Part shown: positions 6,493-13,053 of the stretch, piece after piece | How positions within the stretch are numbered: position 1 is the first letter of the stretch | Layout of the letters: each line of letters starts with the position of its first letter | Source of the DNA: an uncultured Bacilli bacterium | GTDB lineage: Bacteria; Bacillota_I; Bacilli_A; RF39; UBA660 | NCBI GenBank assembly: GCA_947589435.1 | Contig: CANQBI010000009.1 | Coordinates: 1-47,227 of the forward strand | Length of the DNA stretch: 47,227 bases | Direction of reading: 5' to 3' | The notes under the pieces: model-generated | Seen by the model: only the letters and a program-made list of their open reading frames with translations | Told to the model about the DNA's origin: nothing | The model's database searches: none | Translations under genes and position numbers: made by a program

Positions 6493-7149
6493 ATGAATAA
6501 AAAAATAATAATTTTAATTATAGCTATAGTAGTAATTGTGACAGTAGGTTGTGTTGGATTTTGGATTATAAATTCTAATAATAAGGCCAATTCTAATAAT
6601 TCAAATTCAACTGAAAACCAAAGTAATAATGAAATAAAAGAAGAAACTCCAAATGATAATGCGGAAACTAATGATAAAAAAGTGGCGGTCATTTATTTCT
6701 CGGCAACAGGTACAACTGAAAAAATAGCTGGTTATATTAAAAATGTGACAAATGGTGATTTAATCGAAATAGAACCTAAAGAAAAATATACTAGTGCCGA
6801 TTTAAATTATGGTAATAATAATTCTAGAGCCACTAGAGAACAAAATGATTCTAGTGCAAGACCAGAAATAAAAAACAATATAAATACGGATAATTATGAG
6901 GTAATTTATTTAGGTTATCCGATATGGTGGGGAGATGTTCCCAAAATTATTTTAACATTTTTAGATAGTCAAAATTTAGATGGTAAAATACTTATTCCAT
7001 TTTGTACTTCAGGAAGTACAGGTATAAGCGGAAGTGTAAATACTTTAAAAAATTATAAGAAAAATATTATTTGGTTAGATGGTAAAAGATTTTCGGCAAG
7101 TACGAGTCTAGAAGAAATAAATAGTTGGGTTACAAATTTAAATTATTAG
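6493..7149 (+). CDS. Membrane-anchored flavodoxin
   Basis: An N-terminal hydrophobic segment (residues 4-26) and a 40-residue Asn-rich linker precede a complete flavodoxin domain (about residues 67-218). FSATGTTEKIA forms the FMN phosphate loop, IYLGYPIWWGDVP the second flavin loop (with WW), and FCTSGSTGI the third. The anchor is unusual: flavodoxins are normally cytosolic electron carriers, whereas this one is predicted to sit on the outer face. The Cys near residue 20 lies within the hydrophobic run rather than in a clear lipobox. It is first in an operon with a second flavodoxin, a CMD protein and a cupin under a MerR-type promoter, which suggests a role in handling reactive electrophiles or quinones. 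Confidence 0.85.
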   Translation: MNKKIIILIIAIVVIVTVGCVGFWIINSNNKANSNNSNSTENQSNNEIKEETPNDNAETNDKKVAVIYFSATGTTEKIAGYIKNVTNGDLIEIEPKEKYTSADLNYGNNNSRATREQNDSSARPEIKNNINTDNYEVIYLGYPIWWGDVPKIILTFLDSQNLDGKILIPFCTSGSTGISGSVNTLKNYKKNIIWLDGKRFSASTSLEEINSWVTNLNY

Positions 7150-7180
7150 ATTTAAGAGGATAAAAGAAAGGAATGATTTT

Positions 7181-7648
7181 ATGAGTAAAATTTTAGTGAG
7201 TTATTTTTCAGCAAGTGGTGTAACAAAAGGAGTAGCAAGTAAAATTGCGAAAGTTTTAGGTGGTGATTTATTTGAAATTGAACCAATAAATAAATATACC
7301 GATGAAGATTTAAATTGGACAAATAAACAAAGTAGATCATCAGTTGAAATGAATAATCCAGCCTCAAGACCAGAGGTAAAAAGTAAAGTTTCTAATTTAA
7401 GTGATTATGATACTATCTTAATTGGATTTCCTGTATGGTGGGATTTAGCCCCTAGAATTATTAATACATTTATTGAAGAAAATAATCTTGAAAATAAAAA
7501 AATATATGTATTTGCAACATCAGGTGGTTCAAGTGTAAATAATAGTTATAATACTTTAAAAAATACATATAATAACCTTAATTTTGTTGATGCAAAAAGA
7601 TTAACAAGTAATGTATCAGATAGTGATATAACAAATTGGATTATATAG
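7181..7648 (+). CDS. Flavodoxin (cytosolic)
   Basis: A full-length flavodoxin of 155 residues without a signal. It has the FMN phosphate loop FSASGVTKGVA, the aromatic loop LIGFPVWWDLAP and the third loop FATSGGSSV. It matches the domain of the preceding anchored flavodoxin closely (both contain a DLxEIEP motif), indicating tandem duplication. The start is ATG 7181 behind AAAGGAATG, 31 bases after the upstream stop. The likely role is one- or two-electron transfer from a reductase encoded elsewhere, cotranscribed with the CMD and cupin genes. Confidence 0.9.
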   Translation: MSKILVSYFSASGVTKGVASKIAKVLGGDLFEIEPINKYTDEDLNWTNKQSRSSVEMNNPASRPEVKSKVSNLSDYDTILIGFPVWWDLAPRIINTFIEENNLENKKIYVFATSGGSSVNNSYNTLKNTYNNLNFVDAKRLTSNVSDSDITNWII

Positions 7649-7682
7649 CAAATATAAAAGAAGTAGAAGAGGAGAATGAATA

Positions 7683-8015
7683 ATGAAAAAACAAACAGCA
7701 GGTAGAGAGAAGTTAGGTAATATTGCCCCTTTATTTGCCGAATTAAATGATGATGTATTATTTGGCCGTGTTTGGTCAAGAGAAGATGAATTATCACCGA
7801 GAGATAGAAGTTTAATAACAATATCAGCATTATTTGCAATGGGATTATATCCCCAATTAAAAAGCCATCTTTTCCTTGGCAAAGAACATGGTCTTACAAA
7901 AGAAGAAGTGGTAGAAGCAGTAACTCAATTATCATTTTACTGTGGATGGCCTAAAGCTTGGAGTACATTCCCTTTAATTGAAGAAGTATATGGGAGTGAT
8001 GATAAAAATGAATAA
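7683..8015 (+). CDS. Carboxymuconolactone decarboxylase (CMD)/AhpD-like protein
   Basis: At 110 residues this matches the CMD domain, with LSPRDRSLITISALFAMG, the central LKSHLFLGKEHGLTKEEVVE and WPKAWSTF. The typical AhpD CxxC is absent; one Cys is present near residue 82 (FYCGWPKA), as in many CMD paralogues. His 62 and Glu 68 in the HLFLGKEHG helix match the usual proton-relay positions. It follows the flavodoxin by 34 bases with GAAGAGGAG before the ATG, and overlaps the cupin gene. In many bacteria CMD and cupin domains are fused into one protein; here they are separate but translationally coupled. Confidence 0.85.
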   Translation: MKKQTAGREKLGNIAPLFAELNDDVLFGRVWSREDELSPRDRSLITISALFAMGLYPQLKSHLFLGKEHGLTKEEVVEAVTQLSFYCGWPKAWSTFPLIEEVYGSDDKNE

Positions 8016-8436
8016 AGAAGAATTTGATAAATTAAATATATTTGGACTAGGAAATCCAAATGATGCTTTTAAAGAATATTTTATTGGTCAAAGTTATCTT
8101 AATTTGTTAGCCAAAACGGAAAATGGTATTAGTTTTGCTAATGTAACATTTGAACCATCTTGCCGAAATAATTGGCATATTCATCATGCTAAAAGTGGTG
8201 GAGGACAAGTTCTAATTTGTATTGCCGGTTATGGATATTATCAAGAATGGGAAAAAAAGGTTCAAAAACTATCTCCTGGTGATATTGTGGTAATACCTGC
8301 AAATGTCAAACATTGGCATGGTGCCCAACCCAGTTCTTGGTTTAGTCATATAGCCGTTGAAGTACCAGGAGAAGATACTTCAAATGAATGGTTAGAACCA
8401 GTAACAGATGAAGAATATAATAAATTAGAAAATTAA
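8008..8436 (+). CDS. Cupin-domain protein
   Basis: A single cupin barrel of 142 residues. Motif 1 is N-WHIHH-x-GGGQVLICIAGYGYY (His near residues 53, 55 and 56) and motif 2 is LSPGDIVVIPANVKHWHGA. The metal-binding His set (HxH plus the late His) is present. ATG 8008 is chosen because GGGAG (7992-7996) is well spaced; the frame stays open further upstream without a better site. It overlaps the CMD gene by eight bases. CMD plus cupin pairs occur with flavodoxins in electrophile-stress operons; the substrate is not determinable. Confidence 0.88.
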   Translation: MNKEEFDKLNIFGLGNPNDAFKEYFIGQSYLNLLAKTENGISFANVTFEPSCRNNWHIHHAKSGGGQVLICIAGYGYYQEWEKKVQKLSPGDIVVIPANVKHWHGAQPSSWFSHIAVEVPGEDTSNEWLEPVTDEEYNKLEN

Positions 8437-8450
8437 AAAATGAATATTAT

Positions 8451-8484
8451 AAGCAGACCATTTTGTGGTTTGTTTTTCTTTTTT
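8451..8484 (+). terminator. Terminator of the flavodoxin-cupin operon
   Basis: AAGCAGACCA (8451-8460) pairs with TGGTTTGTTT (8466-8475), including two G-T pairs, over the loop TTTTG. A long T/C-rich tail follows. Confidence 0.82.
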
Positions 8485-8514
8485 GCTAATAAAAAATAAA
8501 AGAAAAAAATGAAG

Positions 8515-8533
8515 TGCACGAAAAAATCGTGCA
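8515..8533. repeat. Hairpin element, copy 1 (TGCACGA stem, A5 loop)
   Basis: TGCACGA (8515-8521) pairs with TCGTGCA (8527-8533) over an A5 loop. Flanks are an A-rich run with one G on the left and ATTGA on the right, as in copy 2 at 12116-12140. The second base of the stem core is C-G here and T-A there, a compensatory difference. Confidence 0.65.
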
Positions 8534-8648
8534 ATTGAAAACAAATGATTAAGAAAGTAAGTTGCACTTAAAATTGGAACATCTTAAATTAAAATATCTA
8601 AACAATAAAAATAGTTTTTTAAATACTTAATTGAAATAGAAAACGAAC

Positions 8649-8667
8649 TGGTTAGTATTACTAACCA
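8649..8667. repeat. 9-bp inverted repeat
   Basis: TGGTTAGTA and TACTAACCA flank a single central T. No T tail follows, so a protein-binding site is as likely as a terminator. Confidence 0.65.
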
Positions 8668-8677
8668 ATAGAAAAAT

Positions 8678-8702
8678 AGTTGACTACAACTTGTAGTCAA
8701 CT
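8678..8702. repeat. 12-bp inverted repeat with one central base
   Basis: AGTTGACTACAA and TTGTAGTCAACT are perfect complements around a single C. This near-continuous 25-bp palindrome suits a dimeric regulator; no T tail is present. Confidence 0.75.
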
Positions 8703-8759
8703 GAAAAAGTAAAGATATATTATTATGTTTTGATGCTAATCAAAATAAAAACTAATATA

Positions 8760-8777
8760 TTTATTTACGTAAATAAA
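8760..8777. repeat. 18-bp perfect palindrome
   Basis: TTTATTTACGTAAATAAA is self-complementary over all 18 bases and lies about 75 bases before the next gene, where an operator could sit. Confidence 0.7.
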
Positions 8778-8852
8778 ACTATACTGAAATTAATATCATT
8801 TTGTTTTTAAATAATAAATGATAAAATAAAAATAAAGGAAGGCTAGATTAAA

Positions 8853-9416
8853 ATGAATGAATCAAATAATAATAATATGAATAATATTCAAAATGCTAAT
8901 TTAAATTATGAATCAAGTAATAATATGAATAATAACTATAATACTAATATGAATAATAATTTTAACAATCAAAATGAAAATTCTAAAAAATTTATAACAA
9001 CAATTATTATAGTGGTGGTAGTAATATTATGCGGAATAGGCATAGGTTTTGGAGCAAATGCCTTATTAAACAAGAAAGATGATGGTGAAATTCAATTATG
9101 TCAAATTATGGCCCCAAAAATTGATGATTATAAAAAAGAAAAAATTTCTTATGGCCAATTCTTTGAACAAATCAAAAACGATTATGACAAGTATTGTAAA
9201 GGAAATAATAGTGATCTATGTGTTACAGTGACCGATTTTTATAATGATTTAGAAAATGATATAAAGTTTTCTGAATTGGAAAATTGTAATAAATATAATG
9301 GTTATTTCAACGAAAGTCAATTGAAAGAATTATGTGAATCAACAAATAATGAGAAAAAAACATTCCTTGATTCTCATATAAATCTCTTAAATAGTAGTTG
9401 TTCAAATGTTAATTAG
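8853..9416 (+). CDS. Asn-rich single-pass membrane protein of unknown function
   Basis: Residues 1-45 are a low-complexity Asn/Met/Tyr tail. Residues 46-72 are one membrane helix (TTIIIVVVVILCGIGIGFGA). The remaining 115 residues are polar with five Cys after the helix, plausible for disulfides outside the cell. The start follows AAAGGAAGG. The orientation (Asn-rich part inside, Cys-rich part outside) is inferred. It lies 67 bases before the DUF2207 gene in the same direction and may be cotranscribed with it. I do not recognise a family. Confidence 0.6.
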   Translation: MNESNNNNMNNIQNANLNYESSNNMNNNYNTNMNNNFNNQNENSKKFITTIIIVVVVILCGIGIGFGANALLNKKDDGEIQLCQIMAPKIDDYKKEKISYGQFFEQIKNDYDKYCKGNNSDLCVTVTDFYNDLENDIKFSELENCNKYNGYFNESQLKELCESTNNEKKTFLDSHINLLNSSCSNVN

Positions 9417-9483
9417 TTTTAAACATACTTTTGAACAATTTTTGAGAGGAAAAAATAACTTTTTAAGTAGGTGAATATAATAT

Positions 9484-11268
9484 ATGAAATTTAAACCTTT
9501 ATTGTTTTTTATATTTAACTTTTTATTTATTAATGTTGTTTATGCCAATGATATAAAAAACATTAATATGGATATTTATCTAGATAATAATGGTAATGCT
9601 CATATTAAAGAAAAATGGGTAGTTAATGTTACTAGTGGAACTGAAATATATAGAACTTATAAAAATGCTGGACCATCAACAATTACAGATTATAAAGTTT
9701 ATTTGAATAATCAAGAATTTACAACGATACAAGATTGGAATGAAAAAGCATCTTTTAGTGAAAAAAGTTATAAAGCAGGATTAAATATTATAAAAGTAGC
9801 GGGGGTTCCAAAAGAATATGAATTATGCTTTGGAATATCTGAATATGGTTTAAATACTTATGAATTAGATTATACAATAACAAATTTTGTTATAGAAGCA
9901 ACGGACTCTGATGTTGTATATTGGAATTTAATTCCTGAAGATTTAGATAATAAACCGGAAAATTTTTATATAAAAATATATAGCGATTTTAAATATGTTA
10001 ATTCCGATATATGGGCATATGGTAGTTATGGAGACATGGCTTATGTTTATGATGGCTATATGGAAATAGAAAATAGTAATGCCTTAGATTATGATGAGTA
10101 TGTAACAGTTTTGATTAGATTTCCTAAAGAAACTTTTAATAATGAAGTAAAAACAGATTTTAATTTTAATTATTATTATAATAAGGCAGAACAAAGTTCA
10201 GTACATTATGAAAAAGAAGAGGAAAATAAAACCACTTATAGTATTACTTATATTTTAAAAGTTTGTTTAAGAAATATTTTATTATGTATATTAGGTCTTT
10301 TAGTTGGAGCAATTATATTTTCACCAATTTCTCTAGTTCTTATCCGTCATGATTTGGCCACGAAAATTAAGTATGGCACCAAAAAAATAAAATTTAGAAA
10401 AGGAGTAAATAAGGTTAAAAATGCCCCTTACTTTAGAGATATCCCTTATGATAATATATTTGAAGGTTACTGGGTTTCTTGTCAATTTGATTTAGTAAAA
10501 AATAAAACTGATTTTTTAGGAGTTATGCTTTTAAAATGGTTAAAAGATAAAAATATTGAAATAATTAAAGATAAGAAAATAAAAATAAAATTTAATAATG
10601 ATAATAATCTATCAAAAGATGAAAAAGAACTTTATGATATGTTAAAAGCTGCTAGTAAAGATAATATTTTAAAAGAAAATGAATTTTCTGATTGGTGTTA
10701 TAAAAATTATTATAAAGTTATAGATTGGTTTGATGATATATTTGACAAAACAACTGCAAAATTTTATCAAAAAGGTAAACTAACGAAAGTAATAGAAAAA
10801 GTTCCTTTTGGAAAACTATTTAATGATCCAAAAGAACAAGTGGTTTATTACGTAGAAGAAATAATGAAAAATGATGGTTTAAAAGTGGCAGGACTTAAAA
10901 ATTTCTTAAATGATTTTTCGAATATAAAAGATAGAATGGCAATAGAAATTATTCATTGGGAAGAATATTTAATGTATGCTCAAATGTTTGGAATAGCTGA
11001 AAAAGTGGCGAAGGAATTTAAAGATTTATACCCTGAAACTATAATAGATATTACTTATGATGATATCGTGGCTGCTTACAATTTCTCTTATGTTGGTATA
11101 AGTTCTATAAATAGATCTAAATCATCAGGCTCAAGTTCCTCATCTTCATTGTCAAAGGATCGTTCTCACGAAAGAGCTGATAGATATTCTTCTGGTGGCG
11201 GAGGTTATTCATCAAAAGGAGGCGGAAAAGATGCTTTTGGAAGTGGTTCCAAAGGAGGTTTCCGTTAA
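9484..11268 (+). CDS. DUF2207-domain membrane protein
   Basis: A cleavable signal peptide (residues 1-21, ending VYA) is followed by the DUF2207 beta-rich region (about residues 25-235: NGNAHIKEKWVVN and YELDYTITNFV). A membrane segment lies near 260-285. A long cytoplasmic region (290-560) follows, and then a Ser/Gly tail (SSGGGGYSSKGGGKDAFGSG). This is the organisation of YciQ-like DUF2207 proteins, which normally end in a similar Gly/Ser run, so the gene looks complete at 594 residues. Their function is not established. The adjacent zinc-ribbon gene is probably cotranscribed. Confidence 0.85.
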   Translation: MKFKPLLFFIFNFLFINVVYANDIKNINMDIYLDNNGNAHIKEKWVVNVTSGTEIYRTYKNAGPSTITDYKVYLNNQEFTTIQDWNEKASFSEKSYKAGLNIIKVAGVPKEYELCFGISEYGLNTYELDYTITNFVIEATDSDVVYWNLIPEDLDNKPENFYIKIYSDFKYVNSDIWAYGSYGDMAYVYDGYMEIENSNALDYDEYVTVLIRFPKETFNNEVKTDFNFNYYYNKAEQSSVHYEKEEENKTTYSITYILKVCLRNILLCILGLLVGAIIFSPISLVLIRHDLATKIKYGTKKIKFRKGVNKVKNAPYFRDIPYDNIFEGYWVSCQFDLVKNKTDFLGVMLLKWLKDKNIEIIKDKKIKIKFNNDNNLSKDEKELYDMLKAASKDNILKENEFSDWCYKNYYKVIDWFDDIFDKTTAKFYQKGKLTKVIEKVPFGKLFNDPKEQVVYYVEEIMKNDGLKVAGLKNFLNDFSNIKDRMAIEIIHWEEYLMYAQMFGIAEKVAKEFKDLYPETIIDITYDDIVAAYNFSYVGISSINRSKSSGSSSSSSLSKDRSHERADRYSSGGGGYSSKGGGKDAFGSGSKGGFR

Positions 11269-11317
11269 CAATTAATTAAAAGGAAAAATTAAAAATAATT
11301 TAGTAAGGAGTAAAAAA

Positions 11318-12049
11318 ATGAATTGTAAAAAATGTGGTAGTCCAATTTTGGAAAATGAACAATATTGTCGAAACTGTGGTGAGTCAGTTTTGACTTTAGA
11401 AAATCAAAATAATAACGTTCAACAAGTAAATAATATTAATAATAGTGTGGTAAATGGAACTAATATGCAAACAAATATAAATAACAATATTTCAAGTACA
11501 TATAAATTAATATTGAGAAGAAAAAAAGCATTTGCTGGTTGGGCAGCAACCTTTGATATTTATATAGATAATGTCTTAGTTGGTAAAGTTAAAAATGGTC
11601 AAACAATAGAATTAGAAGTAAGTAGTGGTGTTCATCAAATATCTGTAAATCAAAATAATCCTATAAATATTACAATAAATGGTAATACAACTGCTGATTT
11701 AGTAGTATTTGGTCTTAACAACTATGGAATTAGTAATGTTAATGGACAATCTATAAATAATAATAATGATAATGCTTTTATTCAAAAAAATGTGAAATCA
11801 ACTAATTATGTATTTATAGCTAGTCTAGCTATTTCAATTATTTCTATAGTAATGCTAGTAGCATCTGGATACTATATTACTTTTTGGATTTATCCAATTA
11901 TTATAGGATATTCTATACTTAACATAGCAGGTTTAAATAATCAAAAACAAAGCAGTAATTATAATAAATTAATGACTAAAAATATTATTGCAATAGTAAT
12001 ATCGACAATTATGTTACTAGTAACAATCTATCTTACGGCATTTCTATAA
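11318..12049 (+). CDS. Zinc-ribbon membrane protein
   Basis: The N-terminus carries a zinc ribbon (CKKCGSPI...QYCRNCGES, four Cys within residues 3-23). An Asn-rich linker follows, then a compact beta-rich domain (residues 65-140: YKLILRRKKAFAGWAATFDIYIDN, VGKVKNGQTIELEV). Three hydrophobic segments lie near 158-180, 185-203 and 220-242. The start follows AGTAAGGAG. Zinc ribbon plus small beta domain plus membrane helices is common in uncharacterised Gram-positive proteins; the specific role is unknown. It lies 49 bases after the DUF2207 gene, likely in one operon. Confidence 0.72.
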   Translation: MNCKKCGSPILENEQYCRNCGESVLTLENQNNNVQQVNNINNSVVNGTNMQTNINNNISSTYKLILRRKKAFAGWAATFDIYIDNVLVGKVKNGQTIELEVSSGVHQISVNQNNPINITINGNTTADLVVFGLNNYGISNVNGQSINNNNDNAFIQKNVKSTNYVFIASLAISIISIVMLVASGYYITFWIYPIIIGYSILNIAGLNNQKQSSNYNKLMTKNIIAIVISTIMLLVTIYLTAFL

Positions 12050-12115
12050 AGCATCATTAAATTTATTTATAATATAAAATTATTAAAACTAGTAAAATAA
12101 AAAAAAGAAAAATTG

Positions 12116-12140
12116 AGTTGTACGATTTTTTCGTACAACT
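12116..12140. repeat. Hairpin element, copy 2 (AGTTGTACGA stem, T5 loop)
   Basis: AGTTGTACGA (12116-12125) pairs perfectly with TCGTACAACT (12131-12140) over T5. Flanks match copy 1 (8515-8533): an A-rich run with one G on the left and AATTGA on the right. Confidence 0.7.
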
Positions 12141-12142
12141 AA

Positions 12143-12171
12143 TTGACCAACTTTCGTTAATGTGATAATAT
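12143..12171 (+). promoter_or_regulatory. Promoter of the candidate small RNA
   Basis: TTGACC (12143-12148) and TAATAT (12166-12171) are separated by 17 bp. No coding start follows; the next structure is a terminator about 70 bases on. Confidence 0.55.
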
Positions 12172-12177
12172 TTAATT

Positions 12178-12249
12178 ACAAAAGCCATTATGGTTTTGGA
12201 TCACGTTGTGTGGTTGGTAGAGGGAATTACAAAAGTCCCTCTATTTTTA
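12178..12249 (+). ncRNA. Candidate small RNA of about 70 nt
   Basis: A promoter with correct spacing is followed by a stretch with no open frame. A small CCA-TTA-TGG hairpin (12185-12193) lies within it. It ends in a clean terminator: TAGAGGGA (12218-12225) with TCCCTCTA (12236-12243) and TTTTT. The motif AATTACAAAAG occurs twice, near the predicted 5' end and in the terminator loop. It matches no RNA family I know. It could also be an attenuated leader of the XRE gene at 12346, although a separate promoter lies between. Confidence 0.5.
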
Positions 12250-12253
12250 TGTA

Positions 12254-12297
12254 AGCAAGAAATTCTTGCTAGTAATGTCAAATAAGTTTGATATAAT
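12254..12297 (+). promoter_or_regulatory. Promoter with two inverted repeats before the XRE gene
   Basis: AGCAAGAA-A-TTCTTGCT (12254-12270) and TCAAA-TAAG-TTTGA (12278-12291) sit directly upstream of -10 TATAAT (12292-12297). A possible -35 TTGCTA lies at 12267. These are plausible operators for autoregulation by the gene that follows. Confidence 0.5.
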
Positions 12298-12345
12298 AAT
12301 TTTAGATTATCTTTTATTATAGTCTATAGGAAAGGAGGAAATTTT

Positions 12346-13053
12346 ATGAATCTGGGTAATAAAATTTTAAAAATAAGGAAGGATAATAAAATGTCACAAG
12401 AACAGTTTGCTGAAGTTTTAAATGTAACAAGACAAACAGTTTCCAATTGGGAAAATAGTAATAATTATCCAGATATTGAAACCCTAATTAAAATTAGTGA
12501 TAAGTTTAATGTTTCCTTAGACATTTTATTAAAAGGTGATAAAGAAATGATAAAAGATATTAATAAGAAAACTAAAAATAACAAAATATTAAAAAGAGTT
12601 ATTATTGTTCTTAGCGTAGTTATTGTTATTTTACTCATCGGAACTATAGTCTATAAAGAATATAGTTATCGTTTACAAATTAATTTTGCGGAAAGTAATT
12701 CGGAAAGTGCTATAACTGATAAATGTAATTTAGATGGCAAAAGATTAAAAATTATGGCTATAGCCCATGATATATGTAATAATGATAAAAAATTTTTAGA
12801 AACGCCACTTTGTCATTTTAGTGATTTACCATGTAAAAACAGAAAATTTTTAGAACTTCCAAGATGTACATCAGATTTTGATAGTAAACCATCTAATTAC
12901 AATATTGTAAATAATAATACGAAAGAACAAGAAAAAGAATTAATGAAAAAGATGAATATTAATTTAGATGATTATGAGAATACTTATGATTTACTTAAAA
13001 GTATGGAAGATTATATTATAAGTATGGGTGGTACTTGTGATAATAGAGAATAG
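12346..13053 (+). CDS. Membrane-anchored XRE-family regulator with Cys-rich C-terminus
   Basis: Residues 1-65 form a Cro/C1 helix-turn-helix (MSQEQFAEVLNVT, VSNWENSNNYP, SLDILLKGD). One membrane segment lies near residues 85-105. The C-terminal 130 residues should be outside and contain seven Cys, including CHFSDLPCKN and LPRCTSDF. The DNA-binding part differs from the three upstream paralogues and is of the GNKILKIRKDNKMSQEQFAE type common in Clostridia. The start follows AAAGGAGG. Disulfide-stabilised extracytoplasmic sensing is an inference; the target could be its own palindrome-bearing promoter. Confidence 0.7.
   Translation: MNLGNKILKIRKDNKMSQEQFAEVLNVTRQTVSNWENSNNYPDIETLIKISDKFNVSLDILLKGDKEMIKDINKKTKNNKILKRVIIVLSVVIVILLIGTIVYKEYSYRLQINFAESNSESAITDKCNLDGKRLKIMAIAHDICNNDKKFLETPLCHFSDLPCKNRKFLELPRCTSDFDSKPSNYNIVNNNTKEQEKELMKKMNINLDDYENTYDLLKSMEDYIISMGGTCDNRE

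Follow-up and report, generated by a model that had tools for sequence, protein, structure and literature searches.

A lone copy of a new DUF3800-associated structured RNA family, a candidate RNA antitoxin, in an uncultured Bacilli genome

The DUF3800 RNA motifs, whose discovery paper is reportedly that of Weinberg and others from 2017, are small structured RNAs that Rfam types as sRNA genes, among them DUF3800-I, DUF3800-VII (RF02967), DUF3800-VIII (RF03075), and others. DUF3800-I is listed as RF02969 in the relevant passage of PMC11701678. The DUF3800 protein itself is described, in a section of PMC10910872, as having a predicted RNase H fold and putative associated noncoding RNAs and as being found with Cas12a2, and a passage of PMC12669027 presents it as an RNase H-fold nuclease that is an accessory in some type V-A2 and VI-F CRISPR loci. 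Our literature search found no functional test of the Rfam-catalogued DUF3800 RNAs. The closest precedent that we see for the neutralization proposed below is the abiF motif RNA (RCd22; RF03085), likewise compact, structured, and partnered with a protein gene, which according to part of PMC12373285 neutralizes the toxic AbiF through direct binding. RCd22 is described there as upstream of and co-oriented with its gene and as also lowering abiF transcription (PMC12373285), whereas the RNA reported here is downstream and convergent. Type III toxin-antitoxin systems (ToxIN and others) pair an RNA antitoxin with a nuclease toxin, as we propose for the DUF3800 module. ToxI consists of an array of repeats that precedes the toxin gene and shares a promoter with it; the present family instead consists of a single RNA unit with its own promoter, convergent downstream on the opposite strand, so it lacks the upstream, co-transcribed antitoxin repeats of type III systems, and its protein belongs to an unrelated family. 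The partner proteins of the two RNAs compared above also differ, as Abi_2/AbiF is a HEPN protein, versus an RNase H fold for DUF3800.

We analyzed a 47,227-nt stretch of DNA from an uncultured Bacilli bacterium (hereafter, the window; its genome is G000), in which positions 12143–12248 read as a real, free-standing small RNA gene, a well-supported conclusion from sequence comparison. Sequence reading and a promoter scan place the promoter at 12143–12171 on the + strand, with a −35 element TTGACC (12143–12148), a 17-nt spacer, and a −10 element TAATAT (12166–12171) extended by a preceding TGn. Transcription would start about 7 nt past the −10 and stop at the T-run, giving a predicted sRNA of roughly 70–72 nt (about 12178–12248, + strand) in which folds and homologous copies indicate three hairpins. 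Hairpin 1 (12181–12197, + strand; 12181–12187 paired with 12191–12197) varies in sequence among relatives, in which comparable hairpins of the AAGC/GCTT type are visible. Hairpin 2 (12199–12215, + strand) is the conserved, covarying core, GATCAC-GTTGT-GTGGTT, with GG on its flanks. The third is an intrinsic terminator (12218–12248, + strand), whose 8-bp stem TAGAGGGA/TCCCTCTA pairs 12218–12225 with 12236–12243 around a 10-nt loop and is followed by T5 at 12244–12248; among relatives, one stem pair is changed on both sides. Four open frames of 26–41 codons cross the locus, and none is gene-like. A first-pass annotation made from the sequence alone had described a 17-bp-spaced promoter, no open frame, an 8-bp terminator with T5, and hence an RNA of ~70 nt with its own promoter and terminator, and all of these hold up, the promoter with the TGn extension in addition. 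The annotation had also pointed to a repeat at the 5′ end and in the terminator loop. The repeat, AATTACAAAAG, is indeed present twice and exact (12174–12184 and 12225–12235), but it is not conserved: the first copy is altered in genome G032, and both copies are missing from G016 and G031, so the repeat is probably incidental. Upstream of the sRNA promoter, the scan listed a 10-bp hairpin (12116–12140) that is terminator-like on the − strand and also present in G032.

Promoter-like sites in this AT-rich stretch are about as common as in shuffles (41 vs. 32.3, sd 6.8; no clear enrichment), so the sRNA promoter alone proves nothing. The fold is more stable than shuffled sequence (z −2.6 for 12178–12252 and −3.1 for 12174–12252), and the terminator was not listed by our terminator scan, as its 10-nt loop exceeds the loop limit of 8. 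A longer, 137-nt fold in which the promoter pairs with the RNA (z −6.3) was rejected, since the promoter is not expected in the transcript and the spacer differs among relatives. What places the locus above chance is that relatives whose sequence has diverged still show the promoter, the fold, and the terminator.

The first-pass annotation had suggested searching relatives for a conserved structure, and relatives that keep promoter, fold, and terminator were found by several routes. BLAST against a first set of 60 genomes, the window's own included, yielded three convincing further copies, in G032 (96%), G031 (83%), and G016 (78% identity across 88 query positions, E 4e-14); matches up to E 1 occur in 59 of the 60 genomes and are mostly short and by chance. 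A 25-base core pattern matched three genome-collection records, all of them metagenome genomes titled "uncultured Bacilli bacterium" and bearing the label Lapin, which is suggestive of rabbit, and had 0 matches in the viral contigs searched. With a covariance model built from four RNA copies (R1), five of the 38 genus genomes gave six clear matches, G024 contributing two, and extending the search to the 385 order genomes brought in G366 (3e-7) and G179 (1.8e-4). Class-wide, across 395 genomes, matches at 1e-4 were confined to four genomes, all of the window's own family. Six weak R1 matches were inspected and judged to lie outside the RNA family (L063, L064, L065, L066, L036, and L037); two others (G004:C14 and G005:C51) are real by the R2 model introduced below. 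At L036:1501–1576 and L037:1501–1576, which lie close to the ends of contigs of G033 and G002, a different family is represented by what looks like a further hairpin RNA or the end of an element (GTTCTTCCGAAAGTTTGGGTATG...); other weak R1 matches located at the ends of contigs (L052, plus several in G003) may belong with it.

Comparison with G032 and G023 separates the RNA from its downstream neighbor, an XRE/HTH_3 regulator gene at 12346–13053 on the + strand (gene calls, Pfam) that we do not count in the RNA system. In G032, contig C62 shows synteny to window positions 6493–8715 and 12090–12297, and contig C17 continues from 12295; given this synteny, the G032 RNA is orthologous to the window RNA. 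The two are identical at 131 of 135 positions, none of the four differences falls in the promoter, hairpin 2, or terminator, and the longer neighboring blocks share 94–96% identity (83% in one 277-bp block). The intervening ~3.4 kb of the window (8716–12089; genes 8853–9416, 9484–11268, and 11318–12049) is absent from the syntenic G032 contig, and a search of the 37 other genomes of the genus at E ≤ 1e-15 found no relative of the last of these genes, which encodes a zinc ribbon. In G023, the XRE ortholog (84% protein identity) keeps its own promoter, and the RNA is absent at the site; homology between the window and G023 resumes at the RNA's end (12242–12255) and includes the XRE promoter, whose extended −10 (TGATATAAT) lies at 12289–12297 on the + strand. 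XRE can thus do without the RNA region, and the site also occurs RNA-free. This agrees with the separate promoter that the annotation had assigned to the next gene, and it argues against a leader; the sRNA is probably not a leader of XRE. We consider it extremely improbable that the sRNA serves XRE as a 5′ mRNA leader or that promoter and terminator came together by chance: promoter-like sites are common by chance in this stretch, but promoter, fold, and terminator are conserved across many genomes, and a terminator and the separate XRE promoter stand between RNA and XRE. The proposal that the RNA acts on the adjacent regulator found no support, as the RNA in relatives adjoins DUF3800 genes, its commonest partner, or varied other genes. 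Nor is it at all likely that an orphan RNA became an ordinary trans-acting regulator in the window's lineage, perhaps of XRE. The RNA lies upstream of XRE in G000, and the syntenic contig of G032 ends with it, the next contig beginning near XRE after a contig break; against this, the G023 XRE ortholog lacks the RNA, and the conserved positions are those of DUF3800-linked copies.

The link to DUF3800 emerges from the relatives. G016, G024, and G179 each carry the RNA immediately behind a DUF3800 gene and in convergent orientation to it; the gene was assigned by Pfam (PF12686, E 9e-11) in G016 and by tblastn in the other two. Searching the 385 order genomes with the G016 protein (1e-10) gave 28 matches in 26 genomes, five of which show no 3′ flank (L092, L093, L096, and L098 at contig ends, and L099, which is the front piece of the L095 gene). 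Where the flank is visible, the RNA is convergent and right behind the stop in 22 of 23 cases, on the opposite strand and within a few nucleotides of the stop codon. The sole exception, L094, is a remote DUF3800 gene (1501–2361, 32% identity) followed by a different hairpin-rich stretch, on which Rfam gave no match at E ≤ 0.1. Two further genus genes, in G007:C73 and G015:C108, are likewise followed by the RNA (R2: 1.9e-26 and 1.4e-18). In its complete form, the family thus reads as a two-gene module, a DUF3800 gene and, behind its stop, a convergent RNA with its own predicted promoter and terminator. The linkage holds for the family and not for the window copy: no gene in the window matched DUF3800, and for that reason the window copy is an orphan of this DUF3800-linked RNA family. 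The RNA's partner is also not always DUF3800, since in L162 (RNA 1501–1584, − strand) and L171 (RNA 1285–1367, − strand) it is convergent behind an ORF6N-domain gene; the ORF6N frame of L162 is seemingly broken in two.

Across nine proteins of the DUF3800 clade, D25, E26, E171, D178, and D230 are invariant. Among the PADLOC models, none matches the clade's protein, a search of solved structures returned none at E ≤ 1, and no relatives of the protein were confirmed in the viral contigs searched. AlphaFold2 on a single DUF3800 protein gave a mean pLDDT of 38.6, and this model was not used.

A second covariance model, R2, was built solely from the 22 gene-linked RNAs and, at E ≤ 0.01, yielded 53 matches in 48 of the 385 order genomes. 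It recovered the window-type RNAs of G366, G016, G179, G024, and G031 (5e-10 to 4e-5) and gave no right-strand match at E ≤ 10 to the window copy or its G032 ortholog, so both are tied to the family via nearer relatives. The promoter plan, TTGA[CT][AC], 16–18 nt, TAnn[AT]T, is present in 29 of 30 aligned RNA copies, the one without a promoter being the second G024 copy. Structural conservation is supported by covariation. In the 22 gene-linked RNAs, all 154 cells of the 7-bp hairpin 2 are paired, with 17 double changes versus 5.8 in shuffles, and sliding the partner lowers pairing to 23–48%; the number of pairs with a double change (2 vs. 2.0) and of further pair types (6 vs. 5.6) do not rise above shuffles. 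In seven window-type RNAs (L062 of G179 was excluded, as its shorter loop misaligns), 99% of cells are paired across the 6-bp hairpin 2 and the terminator, with five double changes versus 1.2 in shuffles and further pair types not above shuffles.

Existing Rfam models do not capture this family. Across the whole window, gathering thresholds returned three tRNAs only, and at E ≤ 10 the interval 12050–12345 gave three weak matches (plastid and atoC families, ~12081–12148), none on the RNA and none to DUF3800. In the relatives, no DUF3800-family model matched the RNAs of six relatives (E ≤ 1) or of 20 DUF3800 loci (E ≤ 0.1). Since Rfam holds DUF3800 RNA families and none matches, we regard the window RNA family as a new one of the same kind, and its kinship with the DUF3800-associated RNAs is very probable. 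All five Rfam copies that we met face a DUF3800 gene convergently, lying at its 3′ end or past it: DUF3800-VII lies behind the gene in L106 and between two RNA copies in L034, DUF3800-VIII at the gene's 3′ end in L137 and in L134, where it extends slightly into the open frame, and DUF3800-I behind the gene in L105, a match below threshold (42.0 vs. 44.2 bits). The L137 copy has a TTGACA promoter similar to that of the present RNA family. A new RNA family is thereby added to the DUF3800-associated kind, with the convergent layout common to DUF3800-I, -VII, and -VIII.

To compare the fates of RNA and gene, we tallied 49 RNA copies, which comprise 38 R2 matches below 1e-7, eight window-type copies, and three found through genes (L138 of G031:C125, L203, and L204); they come from draft genomes and are not phylogenetically independent. 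The 15 weaker R2 matches (≥1e-7) stand outside the tally. Three of these 15 were inspected: L179 (G240) resembles a fused relative, and L177 and L178 are unconvincing. An intact DUF3800 gene is adjacent to 21 copies (L143, L144, L146, L147, L148, L151, L152, L155, L161, L163, L164, L167, L170, L180, L181, G016, the first copy of G024, G179, L138, L203, and L204), with intactness in L203 and L204 judged from the Pfam match and open frame. Four copies adjoin genes with stops or frameshifts (L149, L153, L084, and L087), of which L084 and L087 have a single in-frame stop each, one at codon 6, and may still work. Only stubs remain at seven (L154, L157, L158, L165, L168, L172, and the second G024 copy), and no gene or stub was detected at 14 (L150, where merely 105 bp are visible beyond the RNA, L160, L162, L166, L169, L171, L173, L174, L175, L176, the window, G032, G031:C38, and G366:C9:6311); the remaining three are at contig ends and cannot be classified (L145, L156, and L159). 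To guard against overlooked remote DUF3800 genes, 18 of the 62 long frames near 12–13 gene-less copies were scanned with Pfam, and none of the 18 is DUF3800. The neighbors of the RNA are diverse and include ligA (L173 and L174), the convergent ORF6N gene (L162 and L171), an HD-like gene (L061), and mraZ (L011).

Altogether, 25 of the 46 classifiable copies have no intact adjacent gene, and 18 of these 25 keep the promoter (17 by criterion, L174 by eye); the other seven have none by our criterion, and L166, L172, and L175 look decayed. In the reverse direction, the RNA is present at 21 of 21 intact genes of the clade. The pattern is one of one-way loss, in which the RNA often occurs without the gene and no intact clade gene occurs without the RNA. 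Target size may explain part of the asymmetry, an 830-bp gene being hit more often than an 80-nt RNA.

We propose that the RNA hairpins bind and neutralize a toxic DUF3800 protein, as an RNA antitoxin would. Loss of the gene would then be tolerated and loss of the RNA would not. The window copy would be a remnant left after its DUF3800 gene was lost, possibly retained as protection against incoming DUF3800 modules. Taken as a whole, the explanation of 12143–12248 as a lone copy of a new DUF3800-associated structured RNA family, most likely an antitoxin, is one that we favor modestly; for the narrower proposition that the RNA is an antitoxin binding the DUF3800 protein, we see the case as evenly balanced. 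We prefer it over a cofactor, guide, or antisense role because of the one-way loss and the abiF RNA precedent. Counted against the overall explanation are the failure of R2 to match the window and G032 copies, the lack of a DUF3800 gene in the window, the ORF6N loci, and the promoterless or decaying copies.

A rather unlikely alternative, yet one with some substance, makes the RNA a working part of the DUF3800 nuclease, a cofactor or guide in a joint ribonucleoprotein that might serve, e.g., in defense. The RNA's presence at every intact clade gene would fit such a role, as would the accessory role of the RNase H-fold DUF3800 protein at some V-A2 and VI-F loci (in a passage of PMC12669027) and its occurrence with Cas12a2 (in a section of PMC10910872); in addition, RNAs of another subgroup form small tandem sets with a variable part. 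However, a cofactor is useless once its enzyme is gone, and the copies with no intact adjacent gene mostly keep their promoter. A guide-like variable segment was not seen in the family, where differences fall mainly in compensated stems and in loops. It is improbable that the RNA is a cis-antisense or 3′-end regulator of the convergent DUF3800 mRNA: its position on the opposite strand, a few nucleotides from the stop codon, would suit this role, but many gene-less copies retain promoter and fold, and the compensatory changes indicate that the fold is functional.

With RNA often found without the gene and no intact clade gene found without the RNA, the function of DUF3800 RNAs becomes a simple co-expression question. 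If the antitoxin reading is true, DUF3800 proteins would be RNase H-fold toxins checked by convergent structured RNAs, which would make up a large class of RNA antitoxins distinct in gene layout, and the solitary RNAs would be immunity genes, a generalization that we offer tentatively and with less than even confidence.

The window's own genome carries three other DUF3800 genes (two on C6 and one on C7) of another subgroup, each with convergent RNAs of another kind. Behind each of the C6 genes stands a tandem set of hairpin RNAs, convergent with the gene, that share a stem and differ in the middle, and each of these RNAs has a promoter-like site and a terminator-like end; the units lie near 2455, 2649, 2838, 4116, and 4315 on the − strand of L131 (G000:C6:26500–32500). 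The third gene has one RNA, near 1949 in L132, and Rfam gave no match at E ≤ 0.1 on the L131 and L132 RNAs. Upstream, the DUF3800 genes of both loci share a conserved leader (near 1591 and 3242 in L131) with a long terminator-like hairpin (AAAACGGAGATGATATA...CTCCGTTATTTTT), which is perhaps an attenuator. Lastly, at L176:1545–1690 and from L179:406–481 onward, the first half of the RNA (promoter and hairpins 1 and 2) is fused to a different 3′ part, on which Rfam is without a match and which by eye resembles the DUF3800-VII RNA of L034. These joins look as if the RNAs were modular.
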